NCBI RefSeq assembly: GCF_012927165.1
Contig: NZ_JABBGA010000014.1
Location: 62,001-126,000 of the forward strand
Source: Zoogloea dura
Lineage (GTDB): Bacteria > Pseudomonadota > Gammaproteobacteria > Burkholderiales > Rhodocyclaceae
Direction of reading: 5' to 3'
DNA: 64,000 nt
The stretch's first letter is position 1; the number at the start of each line of letters is the position of its first letter. Both the position numbers and the translations under genes were made by a program. The notes beneath the pieces are model-generated. The model was not told the DNA's origin. It did not search any database and worked only from the letters and a program-made list of their open reading frames with translations. Positions 31,205 to 54,097 of the stretch are shown here, piece by piece.

Positions 31205-31214
31205 GATCGAGACT

Positions 31215-31263: not shown

Positions 31264-31316
31264 TCAAAGACAAGCCATGACCGCTGCGCAGCCCGTGGCG
31301 CTGGCACGTCCCCGCT

Positions 31317-31352
31317 CTAAACCTTCGTCTAATATCGCCACCCATCGTTTCC
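31317..31352 (+). promoter_or_regulatory. Putative tod-box-like sites upstream of tmoA
   Basis: CTAAACCTTCGTCTAA (31317-31332) matches the TodT/TmoT box ATAAAC-N4-GTTTAT well (both half-sites with one or two changes). Twenty bases further, CCCATCGTTT (31341-31350) matches the right half of such a box. They lie about 145 bases before tmoA. The known tod promoter has two full boxes and one half box; the linked TodS/TodT pair makes this assignment reasonable. Confidence 0.5.
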
Positions 31353-31477
31353 TTATAACTTTGGGCCATACGGATTGCCGCTGAATACCGGCGGGCCGTG
31401 TGACCCGGGCGACACAGAGCGCCTGCCGCGTGACGGGGCCATCGGGCTCCCGCATCCCGCCAAATAAGGAGACATTG

Positions 31478-34109: not shown

Positions 34110-35096
34110 ATGTCCGAAGTTCAAGTGCTGAAGCCGCAGAAGACCTGGAGCCATCTGGCCGCGCGGCGCCGCAAGCCGAGCGAGTACGAGATCGTCAGCG
34201 CCAACCTGCATTACAACGACCGCGATCCGGATTCCCCCTATGAGCTGTCGCCGGGCATGTTCATGAACGAGTGGTACAAGAAGAATACCTTCGGTACCGC
34301 CCTCAAGCATGCCGACTGGAACGCCTTCCGCGACCCGGACGAGGTGGTCTACCGCACCTACAACATGATGCAGGACGGCCAGGAGACCTACGTCTTCGGC
34401 CTATTCGACCAGTTCAACCAGCGCGAGCACGACATCGCCCTGGACGCGCGCTGGGCGGGCACCCTGGCCCGCCTGTACACCCCGGCCCGCTACCTCTTCC
34501 ATACGGTGCAGATGGCCTCGGCCTACGTGGGGCAGGTGTCGCCGGCCAGCACCATCACCAACTGCAACTACTTCCAGATGGCCGACAGCCTGCGCTGGCT
34601 CAGCCACACCGCCTACCGTACCAAGGAGTTGTCCCTGGCCTTCCCCGACAAGGGCTTCGGCAGTGACGAGCGCCATTACTGGGAGAACGACGTGGCCTGG
34701 CAGGGCTTCCGCGAGCTGATGGAGCGGGCGCTGACGGTGTGGGATTGGGGCGAGGCCATCGTCGTCCTCAACCTGGTCGCCAAGCCGGCCATCGAGGAGT
34801 CGGTGCTGCGGGCGCTGGGCGAGTCGGCCCGGCACAACGGTGACACCCTGCTGGGGCTGCTCACCGACGCCCAACTGATCGATTCGGCCCGCCATCGGCG
34901 CTGGTTGGCGGCCTTCCTGCGCATGGCCGGGGAGACGTCGGGCAACCTGGAGCTCATCCGGGAATGGGTCGCCCGCTGGGAGCCGCTGGCTGACAAGGCC
35001 ATCGAGGCCTACTGCGGGGCCCTGCCCGATGTGCCGGATGCGGTGACCGCCACGAAGCTGGCCACCCGCGAGTTCCGCCGGTCGCTGGGCCTCTGA
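34110..35096 (+). CDS. tmoE: Toluene monooxygenase oxygenase beta subunit
   Basis: 328 aa, structural beta subunit of the diiron hydroxylase, paralogous to TmoA but without the iron ligands. The N-terminal stretch KTWSHLAARRRKPSEYEIVS and FALYTPARYLFHT-like segment (LARLYTPARYLFHTVQM) are family features. The ribosome-binding site GAGGAGACAAGA precedes the ATG. Confidence 0.93.
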   Translation: MSEVQVLKPQKTWSHLAARRRKPSEYEIVSANLHYNDRDPDSPYELSPGMFMNEWYKKNTFGTALKHADWNAFRDPDEVVYRTYNMMQDGQETYVFGLFDQFNQREHDIALDARWAGTLARLYTPARYLFHTVQMASAYVGQVSPASTITNCNYFQMADSLRWLSHTAYRTKELSLAFPDKGFGSDERHYWENDVAWQGFRELMERALTVWDWGEAIVVLNLVAKPAIEESVLRALGESARHNGDTLLGLLTDAQLIDSARHRRWLAAFLRMAGETSGNLELIREWVARWEPLADKAIEAYCGALPDVPDAVTATKLATREFRRSLGL

Positions 35097-35234
35097 CGCC
35101 ACAGCCTCTCCACAGGGGTGGTCCGGCGCCCGGACGGGCCGGCCAGCCCGCCCCTGCAGGCGAGCTTCCATGAGCGCTGCGCCGGGCTGCCCCAGGCAAG
35201 CTCGCATCGCAGTGCGCAGCACGAAGGTACTCCA

Positions 35235-36251
35235 GTGAACACTCCAGTCATTCTGAATGAGCGGGACGGGTCCCGCTTCGAGCAGCGCGACGGCGACACC
35301 ATCCTGCGGGCGGCCTTGCGGGCCGGTGTCGGCCTTTCCTATGAATGCAATTCCGGCGGCTGCGGCGGCTGCAAGTTCGACCTGCTCAGCGGTGAGGTCG
35401 ACACCCTGTGGGCTGACGCCCCCGGCCTGACCGCGCGGGACCGCCAGCGCGGGCGTCATCTGGCCTGTCAGTGCCGCGCCCGCGGGGCCGTCAGCATCAA
35501 GGCAGCCAGCGCGGCGGAGTACGTGCCGCTGCGCACTCCCCGGCGGCGGCAGGCGTGGCTGACCGGCGTCTCCGAGATCACCCACGACCTGCGCGAATTC
35601 CGCTTCCGTACCGATGGCGTCGCCGACTTCCTGCCCGGCCAGTACGCCATGCTGGACCTGCCGGGGGTGGGCGCGTCGCGCGCCTATTCGCTCTCCAACA
35701 CGCCCAACGAGGAGGGCGAGTGGCACTTCCAGATCCGCCGCGTGCCGCACGGCCAGGGCACCCATGCGCTCTTCGACCGCCTGGCCTGTGGTGACGAGAT
35801 CGGGCTGGACGGCCCGTACGGCGTGGCCTGGCTGCGCACCGCGGCACCGCGGGACATCGTCTGCGTGGCCGGCGGCTCGGGGCTGGCGCCGATGATCTCG
35901 ATCGCCCGCGGCGCCGCCGAGGCCGGCATGCTCGAGACCCGCAAGCTGTACTTCTTCTACGGCGCCCGCACGCCGCGGGATGTGTGCGGCCAGGCCATGC
36001 TCGAAAAGCTGGAAGGCTTCGGCGAGCGCATCCACTACATCCCCGTCGTCTCCCTGCCGGGCGAGGACGGGGCCTGGCCGGGCGAGACCGGCTATGTGCA
36101 TGACGCGCTGGCGCGGAGTCTGCCGGGGGGGCTGCCCGGCTTCGAGTTCTACTTTGCTGGACCTCCGCCGATGACCCAGGCCCTGCAGGAGATGCTGATG
36201 GTCGGCCATCGAGTGCCGTTCGAGCAGATCCATTTTGACCGGTTCTTCTGA
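35235..36251 (+). CDS. tmoF: Toluene monooxygenase ferredoxin-NADH reductase
   Basis: 338 aa from a GTG start with GAAGG seven bases upstream. The plant-type [2Fe-2S] ligands are in YECNSGGCGGCKF, with a fourth Cys in HLACQCRAR; the FAD block is SRAYSLSNTPN and the NAD block CVAGGSGLAPMIS. It passes electrons from NADH to TmoC. It is separated from tmoE by about 140 bases of GC-rich, palindrome-containing sequence, and its start lies directly in GGTACTCCAGTG, similar to the repeat between dmpC and dmpE. Confidence 0.92.
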   Translation: MNTPVILNERDGSRFEQRDGDTILRAALRAGVGLSYECNSGGCGGCKFDLLSGEVDTLWADAPGLTARDRQRGRHLACQCRARGAVSIKAASAAEYVPLRTPRRRQAWLTGVSEITHDLREFRFRTDGVADFLPGQYAMLDLPGVGASRAYSLSNTPNEEGEWHFQIRRVPHGQGTHALFDRLACGDEIGLDGPYGVAWLRTAAPRDIVCVAGGSGLAPMISIARGAAEAGMLETRKLYFFYGARTPRDVCGQAMLEKLEGFGERIHYIPVVSLPGEDGAWPGETGYVHDALARSLPGGLPGFEFYFAGPPPMTQALQEMLMVGHRVPFEQIHFDRFF

Positions 36252-36310
36252 ACCTCCTGCGACGACAGGGGAAGGAAGCGCCAGGCAGCAATTCCACCAA
36301 AGGGGAAGAC

Positions 36311-37687
36311 ATGACAAGAATGAAGATCGTATCGGCCGCGGTGGCCCTGGCCTGCCTGGGCATGGCGCAAGTGGCCTGTGCCACCGACGTGTTCCGCCTT
36401 GAGGGCTTTGGCGCGGTATCGCGGGCCATGGGCGGCGTGGCCACGGCCATCGACACCGGCGCGGCCGGCATGATGACCAACCCGGCGACCCTGTCGCTGA
36501 TGAAGGAGGGCAGCGAGGTGATGGCGGGCCTCGACCTGGTGACCACCGACATCGAGGTGCGCAACAAGGCCACCGGCGAGTCGGCCTCCTCGGGCGGCCA
36601 TTCCAGAAACCGGGGGCCCTACGCCGCCCCCGAGGCCGCCTTCACCCGACGGGTCGGCGAATGGGCCTTCGGCGTGGGCGCCTTCGCCCAGGGGGGCCTG
36701 GGCACGGAGTATGGCCGCTCCAGCTTCCTGTCCCGGGCCAGCGGCGGGCTCGATACCGGGCTCGACAACTCCAGCCGGCTGCTGGTGCTGAACATTCCCT
36801 TCGCCGCCAGTTTCAAGGCCACCGAGAAGCTGTCCATCGGCGGCAGCATCGATGCCATGTGGCAGGGCCTGAACCTGAATCTGCTGCTGGGAGCCGACCA
36901 GGTTGGCAGCCTGATCGGTTCGGGGCGGGCCACCGGCTCGCTGATCCCGGTGCTGGGCGGGCTCCCCGACCTGCGCGGGGCCCATTTCAGCCTGACCAAG
37001 AACCAGCCCCTGGCCAGCGGGGTGGATGCCTGGGGCTATACCGGGCGCCTCGGCTTCGTCTACAAGGCCACCGACACCACCACCCTGGGCGCGGCCTACA
37101 CCAGCAAGAGCCACCTGGCCGACATGAGCGGCCGGGCGACGCTCACGGCGATCGATGGCGCGGCGGGGCAGATCCCCCTGGCGGGCAAGATCCGCATCCA
37201 GGACTTCCAGATGCCGGCCACCCTCAATCTCGGGGTCAGCCAGCGGGTCACGGAGCGGCTGCTGCTTGCCGCCGACGTGTCGCAGGTGTATTGGAAGAGT
37301 GTCATGAAGGACATCAAGGTGGCTTTCGAGGCCGATTCGGGGGGCGATCTGCAGATCCGCCTGCCCCAGGACTACAAGGACCAGACCATCCTGGCCCTGG
37401 GCGGCGCCTACCAGGTCAATGAGCAGCTGACCCTGCGCGCCGGGCTGCGCTACGCCACCCAGGCCCTGCGCTCCTCGACCCTGTTTGCCGTTATCCCGGC
37501 CACGCCTAGAAAGCACCTGTCCGCGGGGGTGGGCTATGCCTTCTCCCCGGCCAGCCGGTTGGACTTTGCGTGGTCCCATGCCTTCAGTGATGGCATGGAC
37601 AACAGCAGCCTGCCCAATACCTCCGCGCCGATGCATGTGAGCCATTCCCAGGACAATGCGACCCTCAACTACACCTACCGCTTCTGA
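36311..37687 (+). CDS. tbuX: FadL/TodX-family outer-membrane aromatic hydrocarbon channel
   Basis: 458 aa. A signal peptide (about 1-24, ending VACA) precedes FRLEGFGAVSRAMGGVATAI, the N-terminal hatch region of the FadL family with the NPATLS motif (MTNPATLSLMK). The C-terminus ends in a beta-strand with terminal aromatic (LNYTYRF), typical of outer-membrane barrels. The TodX/TbuX subgroup takes up toluene and similar hydrocarbons. The last 32 bases overlap the start of the sensor kinase gene, so uptake and sensing are co-expressed. Confidence 0.9.
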   Translation: MTRMKIVSAAVALACLGMAQVACATDVFRLEGFGAVSRAMGGVATAIDTGAAGMMTNPATLSLMKEGSEVMAGLDLVTTDIEVRNKATGESASSGGHSRNRGPYAAPEAAFTRRVGEWAFGVGAFAQGGLGTEYGRSSFLSRASGGLDTGLDNSSRLLVLNIPFAASFKATEKLSIGGSIDAMWQGLNLNLLLGADQVGSLIGSGRATGSLIPVLGGLPDLRGAHFSLTKNQPLASGVDAWGYTGRLGFVYKATDTTTLGAAYTSKSHLADMSGRATLTAIDGAAGQIPLAGKIRIQDFQMPATLNLGVSQRVTERLLLAADVSQVYWKSVMKDIKVAFEADSGGDLQIRLPQDYKDQTILALGGAYQVNEQLTLRAGLRYATQALRSSTLFAVIPATPRKHLSAGVGYAFSPASRLDFAWSHAFSDGMDNSSLPNTSAPMHVSHSQDNATLNYTYRF

Positions 37688-40562
37688 TCCGCTCCGCGCC
37701 GGCGCAGGACGTTCTTCCGTAAGGGGGGTCGTCCTCGACGCCGGCGATGCCCCCGATGTGCGCCGCCAGAAGATGGCCAGGATCATCCTGGACTCGATGT
37801 ACCAGTTCCTCGGCCTGCTGGATGTGGATGGCACCGTGCTTGAGATCAACCGGGCCGCCCTCGACGGGGCGGGCCTGTGCCTCGAGCAGGTGGTGGGCAG
37901 GCCCTTCTGGCATGCCCGCTGGTGGGAGGTGTCGGAGGAGGTGCGCGTCCGCGTCCGCGAGATGATCGCCGAGGCGCGGGAAGGGCGCTTCGTGCGCTGC
38001 GACTTCGAGGTCTATGGTGAGCAGCACGGCGAGAAGACCATCTCCATCGACTTCTCCCTGACGCCCATCATGAACGATGCCGGCGAGGTGGCCTTCCTGC
38101 TGCCCGAGGGGCGGAACATCACCGAGAAGATTGCGATCAGCGCCGAGCTGACACGCAAGAATGGCGAACTGCAGAACGCCCTGGAGCGGCTGAAGCAGAT
38201 CGACGGCTTCAAGACCAAATTCTTCGCCAACGTCAGCCACGAATTGCGCACCCCACTGGCGCTGATCCTGGGGCCGGTGGACCAGTTGCTCAAGGAGGGC
38301 ATGGCCCTGGGCGAGCGGGAGAGGTTCCGCCTCAAGACCATCAAGCACAATGCCCAGTCGCTCTTGCAGCAGGTCAATGACCTGCTCGACCTGGCCCGCA
38401 TCGATGCCGACCGGATGCCCATGGCCTATGTCTGCGCCAACATCACCGCCATGGCCCGGGACATCGCCGCAAGTTTTGCCGAGATTGCCGAGGAGCGCTC
38501 GATCACGCTGCGGGTGCGGGGCGAGAGCGAGCTGTACGCCGATGTGGACCGGGTCAAGTTTGTCCGGGTGCTGGTCAACCTGCTTGCCAATGCCTTCAAG
38601 TTCACGCCGCCCGGGGGGCGCATCAGCTGCACCCTGGAGCGCATCCAGGACGCCCGCTTCCTGGTCAGCGTCCAGGATACCGGGCCGGGCGTTGCCGACC
38701 CGATGAAGCCGCAGATCTTCGACCGCTTCACCCAGGCCGAGGCCGGGCAGGGCACCATGGGCAGCGGCCTCGGCTTGAACATCGTCAAGGAGTTCGTCGA
38801 ACTCCACGGCGGCACCGTGGTGGTGGTGGACGCCCCCGGCGGCGGGGCGATCTTCCAGGTGGAGATCCCGATCCGGGCGCCCAATGGCGCCTTCGTGCGG
38901 GAGTCCGGGGAGGAGCCTCTGCTGCATGCGGACTATCGCCACGGCACTGCCAGCATGCCGGACATGCACCTGCCGGCCAACCGGGCCGGTCGGCCGCGGG
39001 TGCTGGTGGTGGAGGACAATCCCGACCTGCGCCTGTTCCTCTTCGACGTGCTGATCGACGAGTACAACGTGAGCCTCGAGGAGGACGGCGCCGCCGCCCT
39101 GGCCTCGGCGCTGGCCGATCCGCCGGACCTGATCATCACCGACCTGATGATGCCGCGCTTCGACGGCGAACGCTTCATCCGTGCCCTGCGTGGCACGCCG
39201 GACTTTCCCCGGGTGCCGATCCTGGTGCTGTCGGCCCGCGCCGACGACGTGCTGCGCGAGAGCCTGCTCGAGGCGCTGGTCCAGGACTACGTCACCAAAC
39301 CCTTCTCACCCCAGGAGCTGCGGGCCCGGGTGCGCAACCTGGTGGCGGTGAAATGCACCGTGGACATCCTGCAGAAGGAGCTGAACACCCAGGCTTCGGA
39401 CATCTGCGAGCTGACCAACGGCCTGGTGGACAGCCGCAAGACCCTGCAGAAGAGCCTGCTGGCCTTGCAGGTGTCCGAGCGCCGCTGGCTGGGCCTGTAC
39501 GAGAACACCGCCGTCGGCATCGCCCTGGCCGACCGGGACGGCCGCATCCTCAGCGCCAACCCCGCCCTTCAGGAGATGCTGGGCTACTCCCGCAGCGAGA
39601 TCCTGGGGGTCAACCTGATCGAGATCACCGAAGAATCCCAGCGCTCCCGGACCGAGATGAACGTGCAGGGGCTGTTCGACGGCGTGCGCCCCAGCTACCA
39701 GATCCAGAAGCGCTACGAGAAGAAGTGCGGTGGATTCCTGTGGGCCAATGTCTGCGCCTCGCGGATCCCCGCGGTGGACCAGGAGGGCCCGATGCTGGCG
39801 GTGATCGTCGAGGACATCACGGCCAGGAAGGAGGGCGAGCAGTCCCTTGCCGCGACCCGCTCCGAGCTGGCCCGGGTGTCGCGCTTCACCACCATGGGCG
39901 AACTGGTGGCCTCCATCGCCCACGAGGTCAACCAGCCGCTGTCCGCGGTCATCACCAACAGCGACGCGGCCCTGCGCTGGCTGTCCCTGGCCGAGCCCAA
40001 CCATGACGAGGTGGTGGCCGCGCTGCACCGGGTCAACCGCGACGCGACCCTGGCGGCCGGGGTGATCACCCGCATCCGCAAGTTCCTGCGGGCCGGCGAG
40101 ATCAAGCGAGAACGGATCGTCGTGGCGCGCCTGCTGAACGAGCTGCTGTTGATGCTGCAGACTGTGTTGCTGGATGCGGGGGTCGAAGTCGATGTGAGTC
40201 TGCCTGCCGACCTGCCCGAACTGCAGGCGGATGCTGTCCAGCTGCAGCAGGTCATCCTGAATCTGATCGTCAATGCCGTCGATGCCATGCGCGAGCAGCC
40301 CGGCGGCGCCCACCGGCTGCTCGTCGAGGTGAAGGAGGACGCCGCGTCGGGCATGCTCTTCGCGGTGCACGACGACGGCCCGGGGGTGCCGGCCGGGGCG
40401 CGGGACAAACTCTTCGATGCCTTCTTCTCCACCAAGCAGGATGGGCTGGGCATGGGCCTGGCCATCAGCCGGACCATCGTCGAGAACCACGGCGGGCGGC
40501 TGTGGCTGGATGCGGCCGTCCCGTCGGGCGCCCGCTTTGTCTTCAACATTCCGGCGGCCTGA
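37656..40562 (+). CDS. TodS-type double histidine kinase (aromatic sensor)
   Basis: 968 aa with the rare TodS architecture: PAS1 (about 45-155), HisKA with NVSHELRTPLALI near residue 195, HATPase with GSGLGLNIVKEF, a receiver with LIITDLMMPRFDG near 495, PAS2 (about 605-735), a second HisKA with SIAHEVNQPLSAV near 755, and a second HATPase with GLGMGLAISRT. In TodS the first PAS binds toluene. The start ATG lies inside tbuX with AGGACA upstream and gives an N-terminus the same length as TodS. It should phosphorylate the adjacent response regulator. Confidence 0.92.
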   Translation: MRPSTTPTASDPLRAGAGRSSVRGVVLDAGDAPDVRRQKMARIILDSMYQFLGLLDVDGTVLEINRAALDGAGLCLEQVVGRPFWHARWWEVSEEVRVRVREMIAEAREGRFVRCDFEVYGEQHGEKTISIDFSLTPIMNDAGEVAFLLPEGRNITEKIAISAELTRKNGELQNALERLKQIDGFKTKFFANVSHELRTPLALILGPVDQLLKEGMALGERERFRLKTIKHNAQSLLQQVNDLLDLARIDADRMPMAYVCANITAMARDIAASFAEIAEERSITLRVRGESELYADVDRVKFVRVLVNLLANAFKFTPPGGRISCTLERIQDARFLVSVQDTGPGVADPMKPQIFDRFTQAEAGQGTMGSGLGLNIVKEFVELHGGTVVVVDAPGGGAIFQVEIPIRAPNGAFVRESGEEPLLHADYRHGTASMPDMHLPANRAGRPRVLVVEDNPDLRLFLFDVLIDEYNVSLEEDGAAALASALADPPDLIITDLMMPRFDGERFIRALRGTPDFPRVPILVLSARADDVLRESLLEALVQDYVTKPFSPQELRARVRNLVAVKCTVDILQKELNTQASDICELTNGLVDSRKTLQKSLLALQVSERRWLGLYENTAVGIALADRDGRILSANPALQEMLGYSRSEILGVNLIEITEESQRSRTEMNVQGLFDGVRPSYQIQKRYEKKCGGFLWANVCASRIPAVDQEGPMLAVIVEDITARKEGEQSLAATRSELARVSRFTTMGELVASIAHEVNQPLSAVITNSDAALRWLSLAEPNHDEVVAALHRVNRDATLAAGVITRIRKFLRAGEIKRERIVVARLLNELLLMLQTVLLDAGVEVDVSLPADLPELQADAVQLQQVILNLIVNAVDAMREQPGGAHRLLVEVKEDAASGMLFAVHDDGPGVPAGARDKLFDAFFSTKQDGLGMGLAISRTIVENHGGRLWLDAAVPSGARFVFNIPAA

Positions 40563-40575
40563 GAGGGAGGTACGC

Positions 40576-41187
40576 GTGAATACCGCTCCAGACACCGTCT
40601 TCGTCGTCGATGACGACCTCTCCATCCGCGAAGCCTTGAGCAGCCTGATCCGCTCGGTGGGCCTGCGCGTCGAGACCTTCCCGTCCGCCGCCGACTTCCT
40701 GCAGCATCCCCGCCCGCCGGGCAACGCCTGCCTGGTGCTGGACGTGCGCATGCCGGGCCTGTCGGGGCTGGACCTGCAGGCCGAATTCGCCAGGGCCGGA
40801 GAGCCGATTCCGATCATCTTCATCACCGGCCACGGGGACATCCCCATGGCGGTGAGGGCCATGAAGGCCGGTGCCGTGGAGTTCCTGTCCAAGCCCTTCC
40901 GTGACGAGGACCTGCTGGAGGCCATCCGCCACGCCCTCGAGCAGGGCAGGGTGGCCCACGACGAGGCCGCCGAGGTGGGGGAGGTGAGAAGCAAGTACGC
41001 ATCCCTCACCGGCCGCGAGCGCGAGGTCATCACCTTCATGATTGCCGGCGCCCTCAACAAGCAGGCGGCGGCCGAGCTCGGCGTCTCGGAGATGACCATC
41101 AAGGTCCACCGCCACAACATCATGCGCAAGATGAAGGTCCGCTCCCTGCCGGACCTGGTGCGGATGATGGAGCGGCTGGGAAGCTGA
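40576..41187 (+). CDS. TodT/StyR-type response regulator
   Basis: 203 aa from a GTG preceded by GGGAGG. The receiver has VFVVDDDLSIREALS, the phosphoacceptor in LVLDVRMPGLSG and FLSKPF; the C-terminal LuxR-type helix-turn-helix is LTGREREVITFMIAG with AAAELGVSEMTIKVHRHNI. Together with the TodS-like kinase 13 bases upstream it should activate the toluene monooxygenase promoter, where tod-box-like sites are present. Confidence 0.92.
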   Translation: MNTAPDTVFVVDDDLSIREALSSLIRSVGLRVETFPSAADFLQHPRPPGNACLVLDVRMPGLSGLDLQAEFARAGEPIPIIFITGHGDIPMAVRAMKAGAVEFLSKPFRDEDLLEAIRHALEQGRVAHDEAAEVGEVRSKYASLTGREREVITFMIAGALNKQAAAELGVSEMTIKVHRHNIMRKMKVRSLPDLVRMMERLGS

Positions 41188-41219: not shown

Positions 41220-41825
41220 CTAGTGTTCTCCACCTCTCCCGGTCGATCGCCGCTCCATCAGGACCAGGTAGGCGCCGAGCCCGGCCAGTAATAGTCCGGG
41301 TGACATGGGTTCCGGCACGGAGTGTTCGCTGCTTCCGCGAATCGCGACCTGCAGGTCCTCCGTCGCAATCGCAATGTCGTTGAAGCTGGAATCAAGGAAC
41401 AGGAGGTCAGAGAGCGACAAATTGCTAATCCCCTCGGTGAGAGCCTCGAATCTTACGGTCGCAAGACTGCCACTGCCGCTGGCGCCGACTATGGCCCCTA
41501 GCAGGGCGTCGCCTGTGAATACAACTCCCCCGGCCATATCGTCGATGAAGCCCGGTATGAAGAAGGTAGAGCCGGCGCTCGGTAACAGCGAACCTTCATT
41601 GACCGATACGGCGCGAATCAGCGTCGGGTTGTAGCTCAGCGTAAAGTTGAACGCGTACAGATCCAGAAAATCCTTGCCGATTACATCGACTTTGAAGCTG
41701 CCACCGACCGCGGGGCTCGTTGGTACCGCTTGAAGATGCACCAGTGGGGCTGCCTGCCCTGGACCGGCTTGAATGGCGGTCAGCAGGGTGCCTACAGCGA
41801 GAATTTTGTGCAAGAGCTTGAACAC
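41220..41825 (-). CDS. PEP-CTERM surface protein with cohesin-like domain
   Basis: 201 aa from a GTG with GGAG seven bases upstream. A signal peptide (about 1-26) is followed by a single domain of about 140 residues with the cohesin type I / CBM-like pattern: an opening VGGSFKVDVIGKDFLDLYAF, FNFTLSYNPTLIRAVSV, then GSGSLATVRFEAL. The C-terminus is a PEP-CTERM sorting signal: VPEPMSPG, a hydrophobic helix and basic residues (ERRSTGR). It would be exported and processed by an exosortase, which is not in the window. The next gene upstream encodes a dockerin-tailed protein, 17 bases away. Confidence 0.85.
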   Translation of the reverse strand: MFKLLHKILAVGTLLTAIQAGPGQAAPLVHLQAVPTSPAVGGSFKVDVIGKDFLDLYAFNFTLSYNPTLIRAVSVNEGSLLPSAGSTFFIPGFIDDMAGGVVFTGDALLGAIVGASGSGSLATVRFEALTEGISNLSLSDLLFLDSSFNDIAIATEDLQVAIRGSSEHSVPEPMSPGLLLAGLGAYLVLMERRSTGRGGEH

Positions 41826-41842
41826 TAGCTTCTCCTATTCCT

Positions 41843-44338
41843 TCAATTACAAATGGTGCCGACCGGAACTTGTCGGGCGACTTGAGCTAGGTCGCGCGCA
41901 TCAACGATGCCATTGATGTCGATGTCCACCGTGGGATTGAAGGCTGGCTGGCCGGCGCGCTTGCCGAAAGATGCCTTCACCAAGCCGAGGTCATCGCAGT
42001 CCACCCGGCCATCGCGGTTGACGTCGCCCACGGCGGGGGGCGCGATGACTTGGCTGCTGAGCACGGCGAAGTTCCGGACATCGTTGCGCGTGACGCTCTC
42101 CGCGGAGAATGTCAGCGTGTCTATCGTGCCGACGCTTGTGGTGGTCGGGGGTGTGAGGTCGACCTTCACGATCGTACTGGCTCCGGTGGCCAGTGAGGCA
42201 ACCGAAGGCGTGACGCTGGTCAGATAGGGCCTGTCATCCAGTGCGGTGAACTTGAATGAATCCGCCGGTCCATCGTTCTGGACCTTGAACATATAGCTCG
42301 TCGTTTGGCCTACAGGAAGGTTGACCGCCGTTGGTGCGACGACGGAGACCTCCTGGGGAATGAAACCGCTTGACAGCAGCCGCTGGAATTTCGCGCCGTT
42401 GCCGTCTTCTCCCAACGCATATACGAAGAAGCGGCTGGAGGGGACAACAACCTTTCCGGTCTGGACAGTGGCTTCGGCAGGGGCGTTGTTGGTCAGAGTG
42501 AAGCTCTGTAAAACTTTACCACTGCGACTTCTGAACTCGAACACGACGTTCTTGGCGGTTTCGGTGAAATCCGCGAGCGCATCAACAGTTTGGCCCGGTG
42601 CAGGCAATCCCGTGACCGGGAATGCTCCCTGGTGGCCGGGGCGTCCACGCGTTTGGACGAAGCGGAACTCGTCAAGAGAGAGCTTGCTTTGGCCGTTCAC
42701 CAGGATTGAGAAGGTTCCGGCTCCCTCGACCGTTATCGTCCACTCGCCCACCTGGGGGCGCTCGATGGAATAGATTGAGGCGGCGCTGACAGGCACCCGC
42801 GTAACGCCTCCGTCCGTCTCGCTTACCACCGAACCATCGGGACGGATAATCCTTACGCTGTGAGCCTCTGTCGCCGAAACGGAGATCGTCAAGCGCGTGG
42901 TCTGTGTATCTACTGGGAATACGTAGTTCTTTGGGCTTGCGCTCAGCGCATCGCCTATCGACAGGATGTCTACGGTATCGCTCCGCGAAATAAGGTCAGA
43001 GAATTCGGCAATCGAGCTGGCTTCTGATTGATTGAGAATGAACACCTGCCCTCCGGTGTTCTCGGCCAGATAGAAATAGGCCGGGTCATAGGGCGAGCAA
43101 CTGCCGAATAGCGAGAAGAACAGTTTCGTCTTCTTCTTAGTCGCCAGGCTTAGTACGCTCCCTGCCAATCCGGCGTCTTTGGCGCTCGCATCGGTGAAGA
43201 GGTAGAGCTCTCCACCATCATCCGAGGCCGACAGGGCGCCGAAGACCCCTGTCATCGCCAGTTCGGGGCAATCCCCGCCGTCGTCTGCGTACAGAGCACC
43301 GAGTGCCGACTTGAAGGCGCTACCGTCGCTTGTTACGGTAGTCGGACCGGAGAATGGGTCGTTGAATGGCGTTAATACATACTTTGACGGTTCCTGATCC
43401 GTGCCGAGCCGCGAGTTGACGATGTTGGTCGAGGTGGCTCGGACGCCGGCGATCACCGAGCCCATGCTGCCCGTGGTATCGATGGAGAACGCGAGGGTAG
43501 GTCCAACGCCCAGCAGGTTCTTGAACTCACGATCGCTTAGTTTCGCCTTCACATCTTTGAAGACTTGATAGGTTGCCAGTACTGCCAGGTCTGCGGCCTG
43601 AGGATGGTGATCGTGATGTGGCGAGTCAAATAGACCGGCCGCCACCGTCCCGGTGCATACGGACATGTCCTTGTTGATCCCACCGAAACCCGGTGATTTG
43701 TCGAAGAACCCGCCGTGGCGGCACTTGCCGGCCGGCCTCGTACGGTCTTGACCGCTATAGTAGCCACTGGTGAGCATGCTGGTGGTCAAGTTGCCCTTGA
43801 AACAAGACTGTCCTGCCGGGGCCTCAATGCAGGTGTTTGCGCCTGCTGGTGCGACATTGCTCACGAATTCGGATTTTCCTATCTCCGGATGGACCCCCCT
43901 GTTCCCAAGCTCAATCCAGTTGCTGTGGCTGTAGAAATCCTGCAGGGTGTGGAGTGCTCGGCCAAGTGCTTCGCGGGCTGCCTCGACGTTGTCTCCCTGG
44001 GTATGCGTCACGACGTCCCGGAGTTCGGCCAGGATGACGAGATTGCAGCCACTCAGGTTTTCAGCATCGCAGTGACGGGCGGTGTGGGCAGGGAAGTCAT
44101 CATCCACGCTGGCATTTGCGTCAAGAATGGTCTGCCGGGCCTTCTTCATCGACTTGGTGACATTGCGGAGGCCTAGGTCGTCATAAACCAGTTGTACCGC
44201 ATCCTTCGTGATCGCTGCGTGGGAGTCGCCTGGTGTGATTGCGCCCAAGCTGACGCTTGGTACGAACGCCTGCGTTGACGGTAGATAGCTGCCGAGAAAT
44301 GCGATAAGCATGCAATGCGAAAGCGGCTTCCTTTTCAT
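41843..44338 (-). CDS. Secreted HET-C/VWA-domain protein with C-terminal dockerin
   Basis: 831 aa. After a signal peptide (about 1-24) comes a HET-C-like region with HAAITKDAV and LHTLQDFYSHSNWIELG, the His/Asp pattern of that predicted metal-binding family. A VWA domain follows near residue 280 with the metal site FSIDTTGSMGSV, as in VWA7/hemicentin-type proteins. Beta-rich, probably Ig-like, domains fill 430-760. The C-terminus is a type I dockerin: two calcium loops, DVNRDGRVDCDDL and DIDINGIVDARDL, each with D1, D/N3, N/D5, D9 and D12 in place. Ribosome-binding site AAGGGAGC. Secreted; partner is probably the adjacent cohesin protein. The block is visibly less GC-rich than its neighbours. 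Confidence 0.85.
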   Translation of the reverse strand: MKRKPLSHCMLIAFLGSYLPSTQAFVPSVSLGAITPGDSHAAITKDAVQLVYDDLGLRNVTKSMKKARQTILDANASVDDDFPAHTARHCDAENLSGCNLVILAELRDVVTHTQGDNVEAAREALGRALHTLQDFYSHSNWIELGNRGVHPEIGKSEFVSNVAPAGANTCIEAPAGQSCFKGNLTTSMLTSGYYSGQDRTRPAGKCRHGGFFDKSPGFGGINKDMSVCTGTVAAGLFDSPHHDHHPQAADLAVLATYQVFKDVKAKLSDREFKNLLGVGPTLAFSIDTTGSMGSVIAGVRATSTNIVNSRLGTDQEPSKYVLTPFNDPFSGPTTVTSDGSAFKSALGALYADDGGDCPELAMTGVFGALSASDDGGELYLFTDASAKDAGLAGSVLSLATKKKTKLFFSLFGSCSPYDPAYFYLAENTGGQVFILNQSEASSIAEFSDLISRSDTVDILSIGDALSASPKNYVFPVDTQTTRLTISVSATEAHSVRIIRPDGSVVSETDGGVTRVPVSAASIYSIERPQVGEWTITVEGAGTFSILVNGQSKLSLDEFRFVQTRGRPGHQGAFPVTGLPAPGQTVDALADFTETAKNVVFEFRSRSGKVLQSFTLTNNAPAEATVQTGKVVVPSSRFFVYALGEDGNGAKFQRLLSSGFIPQEVSVVAPTAVNLPVGQTTSYMFKVQNDGPADSFKFTALDDRPYLTSVTPSVASLATGASTIVKVDLTPPTTTSVGTIDTLTFSAESVTRNDVRNFAVLSSQVIAPPAVGDVNRDGRVDCDDLGLVKASFGKRAGQPAFNPTVDIDINGIVDARDLAQVARQVPVGTICN

Positions 44339-44356
44339 GGCTTGCTCCCTTGGGCG

Positions 44357-44920
44357 TTATGGTTGCTTTCTTCTGGTTGTGGTGTCGCTGTGGTGCTCGA
44401 CTTCGATGTTTATCCGGATGGCAGAAAGATCTGAGGCGCGTTGGGCCCGGTAGAAGTCGATCCCCGCCTCTACGCAAGGCAGCGCCTTGGGACCGAAGCG
44501 CAGAAGCACGCCGCTGGCCAAGCCGAGTTCACCACTCCCCAGCTCCCCCGATCCGATCAGGCTGACCAGAATCGGAACGTCGATCACATCCATTGCACTG
44601 AACGCGGCATCAATGTCGCTTTGTACTGACAGCCGCTTGGGAAAGACGTGGTGTGGCGCTCCCTGCCAATGGATGTTGGTGTTAAGTACCTGACGTATCA
44701 GTTGGGCTCGATCCCATTCCAGAGGTACTCGCTGCAACAGCGTCCGGCAGGATTCGATGTTGCTTGTTGCAGCGGACACCTCAGCCGCAAGGGGGGGGGC
44801 TGAAGCGGATGGGGCTGTTTGGCTGGTGTGCCCGGCGGTGCTCCGCTGGCCTCGTTCATCACATGCGACCGATGTGCCCAGGACACACACCATGAGAATG
44901 ACGGTCGGGATCTTTGACAT
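44357..44920 (-). CDS. Putative lipoprotein of the cohesin-dockerin operon
   Basis: 187 aa. The N-terminus is a lipoprotein signal peptide with lipobox VLGTSVAC, so the mature protein starts at Cys20 and is membrane anchored. A Ser/Ala/Pro-rich linker (about 25-55) precedes a helical domain with LLQRVPLEWDRAQLIRQVL and a short internal repeat GSGELGSGELG. I do not recognise the domain. It lies 18 bases upstream of the HET-C/VWA gene, so the three minus-strand genes look like one operon. Confidence 0.7.
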   Translation of the reverse strand: MSKIPTVILMVCVLGTSVACDERGQRSTAGHTSQTAPSASAPPLAAEVSAATSNIESCRTLLQRVPLEWDRAQLIRQVLNTNIHWQGAPHHVFPKRLSVQSDIDAAFSAMDVIDVPILVSLIGSGELGSGELGLASGVLLRFGPKALPCVEAGIDFYRAQRASDLSAIRINIEVEHHSDTTTRRKQP

Positions 44921-45282
44921 GGGTAAGAGCCGTCAGTCAGAACGGCGGGCATGCTAAGCCGAATATCCGTTTGGCATGATAAGTGGCAAGGCCTGTCGGT
45001 GACCGTTGTTCGTTCATCTTACTTCCTGGCCTTGGTGTATAAATGTCAAAATAATATTCAATATGACTATTCTGATAGTAGATTTGGCTGTGTCTCTCGT
45101 CAAGCCGGATGAGTGAATCCTCCCTGGGCTGGCTTGAGGACCCTTCAACTGAGTCCCTCCCGTTTTCGTACCATCCTTTTTCATGCTCCTGTCTATTGAC
45201 TCACTAACATCGTAGTGATGTAATCGCTAACATATTAGTGAGAGCACTCCGGTTCATCACGCACACAGAGGAGAGACGAGAC
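44921..45282. other. Divergent intergenic region with HpaR-type operators
   Basis: About 360 bases. The left part (about 45030-45100) is markedly AT-rich and probably carries the promoter of the lipoprotein operon, though no good -35/-10 pair could be fixed. The right part holds the TRAP promoter and its double operator, described separately. Confidence 0.6.
45196..45243 (+). promoter_or_regulatory. TRAP operon promoter overlapped by a double operator
   Basis: TTGACT (45196-45201) and TGTAAT (45219-45224) are separated by exactly 17 bases and match sigma70 consensus well. The spacer and flanks form the palindrome TCACTAACATCGTAGTGA (45201-45218); a second one, CGCTAACATATTAGTG (45225-45240), covers the expected transcription start. 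The whole 48 bases are nearly repeated at 56638-56687. A repressor here would fully block the promoter; HpaR is the obvious candidate. Confidence 0.75.
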
Positions 45283-49330: not shown

Positions 49331-49486
49331 GAGGCGGGCTCCGGCAGGCCGGCCCACCGGAGTGCACTCTCGTCCTGGCATGTGTGCACTGGGGATCAAG
49401 CCCGGGCCTGGTCGGCCGCGCACACTGGCGGCCTACGCCCGGATGAGCCGGGGGTCTTTGCGAATCCCGCCGACAGGAGTCTCCCC

Positions 49487-50911
49487 ATGCAGACCTTCAA
49501 CATGATCATCGACGGTGCCCCGGTGCAGTCCGGCCGCCTCATCGAAGTCGTCAACCCGGCCACTGGCCAACCCTTCGCCAGCGTCGCCGCCGGTGACGCC
49601 AGCCACGTGGACCAGGCCGTGGCCGCCGCCCGGGCCGCCTTCCCGGCCTGGAGCGCCCTGTCCGACGCCAATCGGCGGGCATACGTGATGCAGCTGGCCG
49701 ACCTCCTGGAGGCCAACATGCCCGAGTTCATGGCGCTGGTCACCCAGGAGACCGGCAAGCCCATGGGCGGCCTCAACAACGTCGGCTCCGGCATGGAGGT
49801 GGGCGGCGCCATCGCGTGGACCCGGGTCACCGCCAGCCTCGACATCCCGGTGGACGTAATCCAGGACAACGCCGATGCGCGCATCGAAGTGCATCGCAAG
49901 CCGCTGGGCGTGGTGGGCTCCATCACCCCCTGGAACTGGCCGCTGATGATCTGCATCTGGCACGTCATGCCAGCCCTGCGGGCGGGCAACACCGTGGTGC
50001 TCAAGCCGGCCTCCCTGACCCCGGTGGCGACCCTGCGCTTCGTCGAGCTGGCCAACAGCGTGCTGCCGAAGGGCGTGCTCAACGTGGTCACCGGCGACGC
50101 CGACGTCGGCACCGCCATGTCCGGCCACCCGGGCATCGCCAAGATGGTGTTCACCGGCTCCACTCCCACCGGCCGCCACATCATGCGCAACGCCGCCGCC
50201 ACCCTGAAGCGGCTGACCCTCGAGCTGGGCGGCAACGACGCCGGCATCGTGCTGCCCGACGCCGACCCGAAGACGGTGGCGCCCAAGCTCTTCGGCGTGG
50301 CCTTCCACAACAACGGGCAGACCTGCGCCTGCCTCAAGCGCCTCTACGTGCCCGACGCCCTCTACGAAGAGCTGTGCGCCGAGCTGGCCCGCCTGGCCGG
50401 CGAAGTGAAGGTGGGCAACGGCCTCGACCCTGCCACCCAGCTCGGCCCCATCCAGAACCCGGCCCAGCGCAAGCTCGTGGCGGCGCTGGTGGACGATGCC
50501 CGGGAGAAGGGCGCCCGCATCCTCGCCGGCGGCCATGCGCTGGAGGGCGACGGCTATTTCTACGCCCCGACCATCATCGCCGACGCCCGCGCCGGCATGC
50601 GCGTGGTGGACGAGGAGCAGTTCGGCCCGGCGCTGCCGGTGATCCGCTACGCCGACCTGGAGGACGCCATCGCCCAGGCCAACGCCAGCGACAACGGCCT
50701 TGGCGGCTCCATCTGGTCGCCGGATACCGCCCGCGCCGCGGCCCTGGCCCTGCGCCTGGAATGCGGCAGCGTGTGGATCAACGAACACGGCGCCGTCCAG
50801 CCCGATGCGCCCTTTGGCGGCGTCAAGCAGTCCGGCGTCGGCGTCGAGTTCGGTCTTTACGGCCTGGAGGAGTACCTGTCCCTGCAGACGGTGAAGATCA
50901 TGAAGGGCTGA
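49487..50911 (+). CDS. NAD(P)-dependent aldehyde dehydrogenase
   Basis: 474 aa, class of medium-length ALDHs. The cofactor stretch is GSITPWNWPLMI, the general base is in TLELGGNDAG and the nucleophilic Cys in NNGQTCACLKR. The ribosome-binding site ACAGGAGTCTCCCC precedes the ATG. Substrate uncertain; next to FeaR- and AraC-type regulators and the hpa genes an aromatic aldehyde such as 4-hydroxyphenylacetaldehyde is plausible. A strong terminator follows, so it is the last gene of its transcript. Confidence 0.85.
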   Translation: MQTFNMIIDGAPVQSGRLIEVVNPATGQPFASVAAGDASHVDQAVAAARAAFPAWSALSDANRRAYVMQLADLLEANMPEFMALVTQETGKPMGGLNNVGSGMEVGGAIAWTRVTASLDIPVDVIQDNADARIEVHRKPLGVVGSITPWNWPLMICIWHVMPALRAGNTVVLKPASLTPVATLRFVELANSVLPKGVLNVVTGDADVGTAMSGHPGIAKMVFTGSTPTGRHIMRNAAATLKRLTLELGGNDAGIVLPDADPKTVAPKLFGVAFHNNGQTCACLKRLYVPDALYEELCAELARLAGEVKVGNGLDPATQLGPIQNPAQRKLVAALVDDAREKGARILAGGHALEGDGYFYAPTIIADARAGMRVVDEEQFGPALPVIRYADLEDAIAQANASDNGLGGSIWSPDTARAAALALRLECGSVWINEHGAVQPDAPFGGVKQSGVGVEFGLYGLEEYLSLQTVKIMKG

Positions 50912-50966
50912 GCCTTACGCTCATTGGATCGTCTTTCCCTGTGCCGGGGTGCCTCCCGGACATTTG

Positions 50967-50997
50967 CCCGGCCGTCGATGGATGGCCGGGTTTTTTT
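50967..50997 (+). terminator. Rho-independent terminator after the aldehyde dehydrogenase
   Basis: CCCGGCC (50967-50973) pairs with GGCCGGG (50984-50990), followed by seven T residues. Confidence 0.9.
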
Positions 50998-51116
50998 ATT
51001 TTGGGAAGGTACTGGAAACTACTCTTGCGCATTGAGCCCGTTCTGGGAGAATCCAGGTTCGGAAATTACCCTTGATTCCCGATCATCAAATAAAAATGGA
51101 GCCCCGGGGGTTGGTG

Positions 51117-52097
51117 ATGCGCAATCATATTCAGACCCGAGATTTCGATCTGGCCGTTGATGCGGTCCGCGAGGTCTATTGTCCTCACCAATTACGTCTC
51201 GGGCGGCGAGCGTCGGGACTGAATACCTGTCTTTCCGTCACGGGGGCGGATAACTGGCCCGTGGTGCAATTACGCTACGGCGCCGAGGTCAAGGTGGACG
51301 CGGGCAATTTCCGCGATCTCTTCCTGGTCATGCGGGGCCGCTCCGGCGCGGCCCGGGTCCGCCAGGGCCTGGCGGAAGCCACCTGGGGGGCGGGGCAGAC
51401 CATGGTGGTGTCGGCCAACCTGGCCACCACCTTCGATTTCGATGCGGAGTTCTCCCAGACCAGCCTGCGCTTCGACCGGGAACGCCTGGAAAGCCTGTGC
51501 AGCCGCTGGCTCGGGCGGCCCCTGGAGGACGATCTGCGCTTCGATCTGGCGCCTTTCCCGGCTCATCTCGAAGCCACCTGGAGCGCCCTGCTGCAGCTCA
51601 TCGAGAGCGGCTCCGAGGCCTTGCCGGCCCCCGCCGCGGCGTCGCTCGAGGAGTTCGTGCTCACCACCGTGTTGCGCGGCGTACCCCACAACTTCAGCAC
51701 CGAACTCGAGCGCCCGCAGGCGCGACTGCCCTCGCGCCTGATCCGCCGGGCCGAGGAATTCGTGCGTGAAAGCCTGGCCGGCGGGCAATTCGGGCCGGCG
51801 GGATTTTCTATTTCCGAAATGGCCGCCCATCTGGGCGTGGGCGTGCGCACCCTGGAGATCGCATTCCAGGAATGGTGCGGCATGACCCCCTCGGCTTATT
51901 TGCGGGAATTGCGCCTGAAGAGGGTGAGGGAATTCCTGCAGAAAGCCGGCGAGGGCGATTCGGTGACCGATATCGCCCTTGCCAACGGCTTTTTCCATCT
52001 GGGCCGATTTTCCCGCTATTACCGCGAGCGTTTCGGCGAAAGTCCCTCCGCGACGCTCATCAATGCCCAGCGGGCGCGTCGCGGCGGGAGCAGGTAA
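51117..52097 (+). CDS. AraC-family transcriptional regulator
   Basis: About 326 aa. The N-terminal AraC-binding-like region includes FRDLFLVMRGRSGAARVRQG and SFDRERLESLC-type sequence (LRFDRERLESLCSRWLG). The DNA-binding domain is at the C-terminus: ISEMAAHLGVGVRTLEIAFQ and VTDIALANGFFHLGRFSRYY. In-frame ATGs at 51072, 51096 and 51117 are all possible; the last is chosen because it leaves the family N-terminus and has GGGGG upstream, but this is uncertain. The gene converges on the GMC oxidoreductase with eight bases between stops, and may regulate it and the divergent ALDH. Confidence 0.82.
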   Translation: MRNHIQTRDFDLAVDAVREVYCPHQLRLGRRASGLNTCLSVTGADNWPVVQLRYGAEVKVDAGNFRDLFLVMRGRSGAARVRQGLAEATWGAGQTMVVSANLATTFDFDAEFSQTSLRFDRERLESLCSRWLGRPLEDDLRFDLAPFPAHLEATWSALLQLIESGSEALPAPAAASLEEFVLTTVLRGVPHNFSTELERPQARLPSRLIRRAEEFVRESLAGGQFGPAGFSISEMAAHLGVGVRTLEIAFQEWCGMTPSAYLRELRLKRVREFLQKAGEGDSVTDIALANGFFHLGRFSRYYRERFGESPSATLINAQRARRGGSR

Positions 52098-52105
52098 AGA
52101 CGGCG

Positions 52106-53833
52106 TCAGGCCTTGAGGATCTCGGCCATCCGCTCGCCGATCAGCACGCAGGGGGCCATGGTGTTGCCGGTGGTCACCCGCGGCATGATCGAGCCGTCTG
52201 CGATGCGCAGCCCCTCGATGCCATAGACCTTCAGTTTCGCATCGACCACCGACATGCTGTCGCGGCCCATCTTGGCCGTGCAGGTCTGGTGGAAGTAGGA
52301 CACCGCCCCGTTGCGGATGAATTCGTCCAGCTCCTTGCCCTTGATCGGGCCCGGCATCACCTCCCGCTTCACAAAGGGCTTCATGGCCGCCGAGTTGCCC
52401 AGCTCGCGGCAGATCTCCACGCCCCGGCGCAGGGCCTTCAGGTCGTCCGGGTGCTGCAGGGTGTTGGCGTGGATCTCGACCATGGCCTTCGGGTCGGCGG
52501 AGGTGAGGCGCAGGAAACCGCGGCTCTTGGGGCGCACGATGCCCGGGTTGATCACCCAGGCGCCGGGCGCCGCATTTTTTGCGTGGACCTCCGAGGCATA
52601 GGGCACCTCGATCTGGAATGGCTGCAGATCGGGCGTGTCGAGGCTCGGGTCGCTCTTCCAGAAGAAGGTCGCCTCGGCGGAGTTGTTGCGGGCGGCGATG
52701 GGTTCCCGCGGCTCCCACATGCAGGCGCCGATCATGGTGTGGTCCTGGAAGTTCTGGCCGACACCGGGCAGGTGCATCACCGTGGCGATGCCCAGGCGCT
52801 TCAGCTCGGCGGCGTCGCCGATGCCCGACAGCATCAGGATCCGCGGCGTGTGGATGGCCCCGGTGCTGAGGATGACCTCCCGGCTGGCGCGGATCCGGCG
52901 AATCTGGCCGTCCCACTCGAACTCGACGCCGGCGGCCCGCTTGCCGTCCATGACCAGGCGGTTGACGTGGGCGCGGGTCAGCACGGTCAGGTTGGGCTGG
53001 GCCATCACCGGGTGCAGGTAGTCGGTGGGGACGTTGAGTCGCCGGTTGTCGCGCAGCCGCACGTTGGCTACCGCACAGCCGCCATCGCCTTCCATGATCG
53101 CACCGTTGTGATCGGCCACGCCGGGAATGCCGATTGATGCGGCGGCCTCGACCATGGCTGGAGCCAGCGGGCTGGGATTGGGCGCCGGCTGGATGTAGAG
53201 CAAGCCGCCCTTGCCGCGGCGGGCGGGGTCGGGCACGCCCTGCCAGTCCTCGATGCGCTTGTAGATCTCGAGCGCATGGGCATAGCCCCATGAGGCGTCG
53301 CCGGCTTCGCGGGCCCACATCTCGAAGTCGTTCTTGTGGCCGCGGGCCCAGATCATCGCGTTGATGCTGGAGCCGCCGCCCAGGGCCTTGCCCATCGGGG
53401 ACAGGATGGTCCGGTTGTTGATGCCCTCGAAGGGCTGGACCTTGTAGCCCCAGTCGAAGGGGCCGCCGATGTTGGTGTACCACACCGATGGGTTGAGGAT
53501 GCTCGGCGCGTCGTCGGTGCCGCCGGCCTCCAGCAGCAGCACCTTCACGTCCGGGTTTTCGGCCAGGCGCCGGGCCACCACCGACCCGGACGAGCCGGCG
53601 CCGCAGACGATGTAGTCGTAGCTGCCGCGCAAGGCCTCGCGCAGGGCCTTCTGGTTGTCGGCGATGGCGAAGGCCTGGTCCACCTTGAGGCTGGCGGCGG
53701 CGAGGCCGAGGCCCAGGGCGGTGGCCTGGCGGATGAAGCCACGGCGGTCCACCCGGCCGCTCATGGCCAGGGCTTCGAGCCGGTCGAGGCGGTCGCCGGC
53801 CTCGAGGGAGGGGGGAATGTTCTTGTCGGTCAT
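52106..53833 (-). CDS. GMC-family FAD-dependent alcohol oxidoreductase
   Basis: 575 aa from the ATG at 53833 with GAAGGAG upstream. A twin-arginine-like signal (DRRGFIRQATALGLGLAAAS, about residues 29-48) precedes the FAD-binding motif YDYIVCGAGSSGSVVARRL. The GMC signatures are GKALGGGSSINAMIWARGH and the second GAIHTPRILMLSGIG; the catalytic His/Asn region near the C-terminus is SYFHQTCTAKMG and the closing MPRVTTGNTMAPCVLIGE. It would oxidise a primary alcohol to an aldehyde, probably at or outside the cytoplasmic membrane. It is divergent from an ALDH gene, so alcohol to acid conversion is likely. Confidence 0.88.
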   Translation of the reverse strand: MTDKNIPPSLEAGDRLDRLEALAMSGRVDRRGFIRQATALGLGLAAASLKVDQAFAIADNQKALREALRGSYDYIVCGAGSSGSVVARRLAENPDVKVLLLEAGGTDDAPSILNPSVWYTNIGGPFDWGYKVQPFEGINNRTILSPMGKALGGGSSINAMIWARGHKNDFEMWAREAGDASWGYAHALEIYKRIEDWQGVPDPARRGKGGLLYIQPAPNPSPLAPAMVEAAASIGIPGVADHNGAIMEGDGGCAVANVRLRDNRRLNVPTDYLHPVMAQPNLTVLTRAHVNRLVMDGKRAAGVEFEWDGQIRRIRASREVILSTGAIHTPRILMLSGIGDAAELKRLGIATVMHLPGVGQNFQDHTMIGACMWEPREPIAARNNSAEATFFWKSDPSLDTPDLQPFQIEVPYASEVHAKNAAPGAWVINPGIVRPKSRGFLRLTSADPKAMVEIHANTLQHPDDLKALRRGVEICRELGNSAAMKPFVKREVMPGPIKGKELDEFIRNGAVSYFHQTCTAKMGRDSMSVVDAKLKVYGIEGLRIADGSIMPRVTTGNTMAPCVLIGERMAEILKA

Positions 53834-54097
53834 GGGTGTCTCCTTCCTGTTTCTGGGTGGAATGCAACGCGCCGGCAGGGGCGTGCCGGGAGGAGTGTCG
53901 GCCAGCGTCCATCCACCCGGATATCCGTAATCCGAATCGCTGTCCGCATCACGAATCGCCTTGTTCGCCTGGCGCAGCTGGTTGCGGATAGCGGATAGGC
54001 GCGCGGACTTCGGATAGCTCGTTGGCGGGGGCGCCACCACCATCCGCCGAACCCCGACCCAGCGGGGCCCACCACCCAGAACGAGGAGATCCCCATC
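53834..54097. promoter_or_regulatory. Divergent promoter region with GCGGATA direct repeats
   Basis: 264 bases between the GMC oxidoreductase and the divergent ALDH. It contains a palindrome CGGATATCCG (53918-53927), AATCCG (53929-53934), two adjacent GCGGATA copies (53984-53997) and CGGATAG (54011-54017). AraC proteins bind paired direct repeats, so these are candidate sites for the regulator at 51117-52097. Core promoters could not be fixed. Confidence 0.45.

Follow-up and report, generated by a model that had tools for sequence, protein, structure and literature searches.

A cohesin gene with a PEP-CTERM-like tail beside a dockerin-tailed VWA7/Het-C gene in Zoogloea dura: a candidate two-part surface display module

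The window analysed here is a stretch of 64,000 nucleotides from the Zoogloea dura genome (contig NZ_JABBGA010000014.1, positions 62,001 to 126,000 of the forward strand). It holds two adjoining minus-strand genes that encode the two halves of a putative cohesin-dockerin pair: P0001 (41220–41825; 201 amino acids, start codon GTG), a predicted secreted single-cohesin protein with a PEP-CTERM-like tail, and P0002 (41843–44338; 831 amino acids), a predicted secreted protein of the VWA7/Het-C type with a C-terminal dockerin. The open reading frames confirm the coordinates, the strand and the spacing of 17 bases that a sequence-only reading of the window had given for these genes. The same reading had described these two genes; a third gene that it overlooked (P0007, 44357–44920, minus strand) belongs to the unit as well. 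P0007 encodes a small secreted or lipoprotein-like protein of 187 amino acids, for which no Pfam family was matched, and is recognised through its BLASTP relation to a gene of the relative L014 described below. Together, the three genes form a cassette at 41220–44920.

Profile searches bore out both domains that the reading had named. The cohesin domain of P0001 (residues 37–140, 41406–41717, minus strand) matches PF00963 with 34.1 bits against a cut-off of 24.1 (E 3.6e-8). As a single sequence in a phmmer search of the PDB it retrieved only chance-level UmuD matches (E 0.14–0.31), and a three-sequence profile was needed. This profile, A4, combines the cohesins of P0001, G056 and L014 (a genome and a locus introduced below) and retrieved 19 PDB sequences at E ≤ 0.1, each from a cohesin, scaffoldin or anchoring-protein entry, with 3l8q as the best (E 9.3e-6). 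The type I dockerin of P0002 (residues 771–830, 41849–42028, minus strand) reaches 31.8 bits with PF00404 (Dockerin_1, cut-off 22.9) over residues 771–823 and carries two calcium loops, DVNRDGRVDCDDL and DIDINGIVDARDL. Profile A2, which joins this dockerin to two relatives, retrieved 26 PDB sequences at E ≤ 0.01; the best is the cellulosomal dockerin 2y3n_B (E 1.6e-9), and calmodulin-type chains match from E 0.0019 upwards. One cysteine in loop 1 (Cys781) and one near the C-terminus (Cys830) are kept in all three dockerins of the P0002 branch, a pattern that fits a putative disulfide. At the C-terminus of P0001 (approximately residues 169–193, 41247–41321, minus strand) a PEP-CTERM motif is evident by eye, with SVPEP, a hydrophobic stretch and RR. 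Single-chain AlphaFold2 models were poor, with a mean pLDDT (predicted local distance difference test) of 38.8 for P0002 (alignment A3, two sequences) and 46.1 for P0001 (A5, two sequences). When A3 was searched against the PDB at E ≤ 1, 13 of the 14 matched sequences fell at the dockerin end and one was a chance-level PTB-like match (E 0.72), and no structure was found for the Het-C/VWA part.

P0002 had been described as a HET-C/VWA protein with Ig-like repeats. The VWA and Ig-like parts of that description hold, and its HET-C part is a VWA7-type N-terminal domain. In order, P0002 comprises a VWA7_N/Het-C-like domain (residues 45–272, 43523–44206; PF25107, 166.1 bits, cut-off 27.5), a von Willebrand A domain (VWA_4, residues 282–436, 43031–43495; PF25106, 146.2 bits, cut-off 27), a hemicentin GBD-like domain (GBD_Hemicentin, residues 465–552, 42683–42946; PF23560, 45.9 bits) and the Ig-like domain of VWA7 (Ig_VWA7, residues 677–764, 42047–42310; PF23619, 39.0 bits), all on the minus strand. 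The Pfam Het-C match itself is just above threshold (24.0 bits, cut-off 21). For Het-C, PMC3482391 predicts a metal-dependent hydrolase, a relative of zinc phospholipase C and S1-P1 nuclease, and gives the motifs HxxxDxxxH, HxD and Nxx[DE]. P0002 carries H130/D134/H138 (HxxxDxxxH), N140/E143 (NxxE) and H241/D243 (HxD), which are invariant between P0002 and P0004, the two sequences compared. Hence P0002 shares the Het-C motif residues with the proteins of PMC3482391, together with the VWA, GBD and Ig_VWA7 domains of the VWA7 Pfam models, but differs in being bacterial, in its dockerin tail and in the adjoining cohesin gene. P0002 may be a surface-held hydrolase that acts on phospholipid or nucleic acid.

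The genome of Z. dura (5.83 Mb, 83 contigs) yielded a single cohesin match, both with the Pfam model at E ≤ 1 and with A4 at E ≤ 1e-4. Four dockerin matches were found at E ≤ 1, and the only one above the cut-off is P0002. Thus the one cohesin and the one dockerin above cut-off that were found are neighbours, and they lie in a genome with a sorting enzyme: one exosortase was found, exosortase A (XrtA, 275.7 bits, cut-off 208). Among 14 control genomes the cohesin family was matched in two at E ≤ 1 (one above cut-off) and the dockerin family in nine (two above cut-off); weak matches therefore carry little meaning.

The composition of the cassette is foreign. Its GC (guanine plus cytosine) content is 58.6%, and GC at third codon positions is 65–69% in the three genes as against 90–94% in four neighbouring genes. 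A genome of the same genus, G756, is collinear with window positions 34120–41178 at approximately 75–85% nucleotide identity; the match stops in the final codons of a regulator gene, at a distance of 41 bases from the cohesin gene. The G756 stretch covers the cohesin-gene side, where one border of the cassette is thereby located. When P0002, alone of the three cassette genes, was searched against 101 genomes of the family at E ≤ 1e-5, it was found in its own genome and in neither of two same-genus genomes; G692 gave two partial matches (44.5 and 28.6 bits). VWA7_N occurs in one of 300 genomes of the order (Z. dura) and in three of 398 genomes of the phylum sample (Z. dura, G417 and G543). In a plasmid collection P0002 was met in four records, each covering 13–22% of it, and P0001 in none at E ≤ 1e-3. 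A phage collection held no match to P0002 at E ≤ 1e-5. Searches of PHROGs and PADLOC gave no match at E ≤ 0.001. The window contains no tRNA, and no repeat bracketing the cassette stood out.

A search of genome contigs for relatives, whose reach from one query protein is limited to close relatives, retrieved one, the locus L014 in a Methylococcales metagenome-assembled genome (isolate LacPavin; G856). L014 repeats the cassette gene for gene, with the order kept. Its first gene encodes a protein of 299 amino acids related to P0007 (BLASTP 2e-8, 27% identity over 86 amino acids), and its VWA7-dockerin cargo is 52% identical to P0002. The cohesin gene follows the cargo gene after 2 bases, and its 964-amino-acid product combines an N-terminal cohesin (33.1 bits) with PATR repeats and an autotransporter beta-domain (159.5 bits). 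By its domain content, the predicted product is a surface anchor of another kind: the anchor type is exchanged and the cohesin retained.

Further pairs came from genome searches, which rely on a first screening step and may overlook members. The Pfam Cohesin model detected only Z. dura and G056 among 398 genomes of the phylum at E ≤ 1e-4. A4 at the same threshold gave 37 places in 35 of 399 genomes of the order. Thirty of these places were inspected (the other seven are open frames of 649–825 amino acids): 26 hold a homologue of a secretin-type protein, and four are the cohesins of Z. dura, G056, G029 and G284. Among 91 genomes of the order of L014, A4 detected four (G856, G911, G946 and G922), which brings the non-secretin cohesins found by profile to eight. 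Z. dura being the query and L014 having entered through its cargo, six were found independently of any dockerin, namely those of G056, G029, G284, G911, G946 and G922, the last two being near-identical (98% cargo identity). In five of the eight (Z. dura, G056, G856, G946 and G922) the cohesin comes directly after a gene with a Pfam-confirmed dockerin, and in G911 it follows a gene with a dockerin-like tail. In G029 and G284 the cohesin gene lies directly before a giant frame of the LEPR-XLL type (named by eye), with an internal dockerin about 25 kilobases on; the frame of G029 runs from 85055 to 127222 and has 14,056 codons. A ninth pair, in G193, was found from the dockerin side. Overall, in seven of nine loci the dockerin gene comes first and the cohesin gene second, both on one strand and approximately 2–95 base pairs apart, the start codons of the relatives having been chosen by hand.

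The cargo differs widely among the nine loci: VWA7/Het-C (two), a reprolysin of family M12B (G056), Peptidase C25 with a propeptide (G193), a TSP3 protein (G911), a multihaem cytochrome resembling MtrC/MtrF with BACON and Big_9 domains (the near-identical G946 and G922) and the giant LEPR-XLL protein (G029 and G284). The cohesin tails vary as well, with PEP-CTERM in six loci (marginal in Z. dura), VPLPA-CTERM in two (27.3 bits, cut-off 25.35) and an autotransporter in one. In G946 (L125:8016–11414, minus strand) and G922 (L126:5426–8821, plus strand) the dockerin-tailed cytochrome gene is followed by the VPLPA-CTERM cohesin gene, and surface docking of an electron carrier is possible in the order of the Methylococcales genome. 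In G193 (L085:8417–11714, minus strand) the peptidase with its propeptide and dockerin is of the gingipain type, and a cohesin-like PEP-CTERM gene comes next.

Cohesins and dockerins diverge in parallel. The distance matrices of seven pairs correlate with r 0.883, and 2 of 5040 permutations, the observed one included, were as good; with G922 dropped as a near duplicate, the six remaining pairs give r 0.744 (4 of 720 permutations, observed included). G029 and G284 were left out of the comparison, and the dockerin stretch of G911 was picked by eye. One branch unites Z. dura, G856 and G056, another G193, G946 and G922, and each mixes the order of Z. dura with that of the Methylococcales genome. 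The cargoes of Z. dura and G056 show no BLASTP similarity at E ≤ 0.01, and that of G193 resembles those of G946/G922 over about 60 amino acids only. The G911 cargo has stretches of 35–79 amino acids in common with other cargoes, which are probably TSP3 repeats. The number of pairs is small, and linkage between adjoining stretches of DNA could produce the same signal, so the correlation supports the view that dockerin and cohesin were inherited together as a unit and is no proof of binding.

We propose that the sorted cohesin is a surface socket for dockerin-tailed cargo, the two making up a display module in two parts that is carried on a mobile cassette, and we consider this likely, while binding and location are what we infer. 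P0002 would be exported by a predicted signal peptide, with the dockerin at its C-terminus. P0001 would likewise be exported, its PEP-CTERM-like tail would be processed by exosortase A, and the processed protein would be held either in the exopolysaccharide layer or at the outer membrane or outside it. There, the calcium-loaded dockerin would bind the cohesin, presumably in a calcium-dependent manner, and the multidomain cargo, in which no sorting tail of its own was recognised, would be held non-covalently at the cell surface. The dockerin disulfide might act as a clasp and the Het-C domain as an active metal-dependent surface hydrolase. Since floc formation and bound exopolymer have been connected with a PEP-CTERM protein (PMC9850573), the matrix is as conceivable a place of retention as the membrane. 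For the wider idea of a general surface docking port of Gram-negative bacteria, in which a mobile, reusable dockerin tail meets a sorted cohesin (PEP-CTERM, VPLPA-CTERM or autotransporter) and the cargo is swapped between lineages, we see the balance tipping slightly in favour.

Where the complex would reside bears on one alternative, in which the cohesin does bind the dockerin, though in the periplasm or at the inner membrane, where it would be a chaperone for assembly or secretion instead of a surface anchor. The location of processed PEP-CTERM proteins is indeed proposed rather than settled in PMC1569441. However, the same cohesin type forms the N-terminal part of an autotransporter in L014, which would lie outside, and the cargoes elsewhere resemble exoenzymes and a multihaem cytochrome. 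We therefore regard a chaperone as unlikely.

Several observations weigh against the socket proposal. The TIGR02595 score of the P0001 tail is 15.4 bits, marginally under the cut-off of 16, and the Pfam PEP-CTERM model (PF07589) did not match P0001. L014 was found via its cargo and is therefore no independent draw. The dockerin-like tail of G911 was assigned by eye, Pfam showing TSP_3 only, with Dockerin_1 and our own dockerin profile unmatched. Three cohesins lie below the Pfam cut-off (G193 15.6, G284 20.1 and G911 22.0 bits) and those of G946 and G922 are unseen by Pfam; these five calls rest on A4 or on a five-sequence profile. Furthermore, all five scanned secretin-type proteins carry Pfam Secretin (126–145 bits) together with Cohesin at 29–45 bits, above cut-off, and we know of no dockerin partner for secretin-borne cohesins. 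On the dockerin side, a search gave 28 places in 19 of 300 genomes, five of them with a cohesin (Z. dura, G056, G193, G029 and G284). The other 23 have no clear cohesin in the stretch inspected, which spanned up to about 20 kilobases and in some cases ended at a contig end; for five of the giant frames (L086, L088, L090, L106 and L107) one or both edges of the stretch lay within the frame, the neighbouring gene on such a side being outside the view. Dockerin-like domains thus often occur with no cohesin near them.

These last two observations, 26 of 30 inspected A4 matches being secretin-type with no dockerin partner evident and 23 of 28 dockerins lacking a clear cohesin nearby, suit a second alternative. 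Here, P0001 would not bind the P0002 dockerin; it would be a PEP-CTERM matrix protein built on a cohesin-like beta-sandwich, and the dockerin a calcium-stabilised C-terminal cap. This is hard to reconcile with the finding that, for each of the six non-secretin cohesins detected independently of any dockerin, the neighbouring gene supplies a dockerin or dockerin-like partner, on varied cargoes, or with the sole copies found in the Z. dura genome adjoining each other, and we judge it improbable. A mini-cellulosome for polysaccharide breakdown would use the same two domains, but with one cohesin, no glycoside hydrolase or carbohydrate-binding module among the Pfam matches of the three cassette proteins, and neither another cohesin nor another dockerin above cut-off met in the genome searches, it is barely credible. 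Cellulosome and defence-system readings were dropped on domain content. The view of the sequence-only reading, in which a sorted cohesin serves as the socket of the dockerin encoded next to it, gains strong comparative support from the sole adjacent copies, the other cargoes, the swapped anchors and the correlated divergence; the predicted physical binding, its calcium dependence, the outer-surface location and the putative disulfide stay conjectural.

The main survey of non-cellulosomal cohesin and dockerin modules is reportedly that of Peer et al. in 2009, in which an earlier mention of such an arrangement is possible; our literature search returned no paper that pairs 'dockerin' or 'cohesin' with 'PEP-CTERM'. 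For 'cohesin' with 'exosortase' it returned only a review on ANME archaea, in the available part of which the two are not linked. Non-cellulosomal pairs are known from Archaeoglobus fulgidus (PMC9705933) and from ANME archaea and their partner sulfate reducers (PMC9012536, PMC10553843), likewise as separate proteins outside cellulose degradation and with apparent transfer between clades. Unlike these, the present pair is a Gram-negative two-gene unit whose cohesin bears a putative exosortase sorting tail or an autotransporter and whose cargo is exchanged. While the general pair type is known, the arrangement of a non-cellulosomal cohesin-dockerin pair as a predicted sorted socket with exchangeable dockerin-tailed cargo appears to be new. 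With the clostridial cellulosome the locus shares cohesin and type I dockerin, but it lacks a multi-cohesin scaffoldin, a glycoside hydrolase and a carbohydrate-binding module.

With the PEP-CTERM/exosortase system (PMC1569441) the locus shares the PEP motif, the hydrophobic stretch, the basic end and exosortase A. In contrast to that system, the protein that is sorted here apparently serves to receive a second secreted one and is encoded in a three-gene unit instead of the usual single-gene operon; neither 'cohesin' nor 'dockerin' appears in the main text of PMC1569441. The layout of L014 is that of an engineered Escherichia coli cohesin autodisplay, in which an autotransporter-displayed cohesin catches dockerin-tagged proteins (PMC9705933); L014, however, is natural, has its own cohesin type and cargo, and its binding is predicted only. 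The locus bears on the roles both of non-cellulosomal cohesins and dockerins and of PEP-CTERM proteins. If the proposal is true, exosortase-sorted proteins can be receptors by which other secreted proteins are retained, among them multihaem cytochromes in two genomes of the order of the Methylococcales genome, and the docking port of Z. dura would keep at the cell surface what is predicted to be a metal-dependent Het-C hydrolase. Such pairs would also offer ready-made docking parts for Gram-negative surface display, as a natural counterpart of the engineered cohesin autodisplay.

The searches yielded further cohesin- and dockerin-bearing genes. In the 26 secretin-type loci (L021–L043, L045, L047 and L048) the cohesin is C-terminal, and prepilin-like genes adjoin in L021 and L022, the two that were read closely. 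Open frames of approximately 4,300–14,056 amino acids with internal dockerin-like calcium repeats occur in G029:C2, G284:C17, G055, G140, G118, G157 and G160; the LEPR-XLL type was assigned by eye only where the start of the frame was read (G029 and G284). PEP-CTERM genes lie right after giant dockerin genes in G118 (L098:8753–9400, minus strand) and G157 (L105:10440–11114, plus strand); Pfam detected no cohesin in them, and perhaps they encode a diverged one. L102 (G193:C1) shows a weak cohesin-like signal inside a dockerin protein (21.5 bits for the frame, 13.8 for the best stretch). G417 encodes two dockerin-tailed proteins ending in cysteine (L109:4898–6010 and L110:9408–10847), one with a VWA-like start by eye, and in addition a VWA7_N frame of 1358 amino acids (L008).

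The intergenic region upstream of the cassette (44921–45237) has a GC content of only 46%. A sigma-54-like pattern (self-made consensus, one mismatch) had no match in this region. Two promoter-like matches lie there on the minus strand, at 45103–45075 and 44989–44962, the region holding three against 1.4 expected (standard deviation 1.3). Further out, the window encodes at 26836–32983 (plus strand) and 49382–59689 what we take by eye to be subunits of multicomponent monooxygenases and several aldehyde dehydrogenases. Read in this way, the surroundings of the cassette would be a region for the degradation of aromatic or alkyl compounds.

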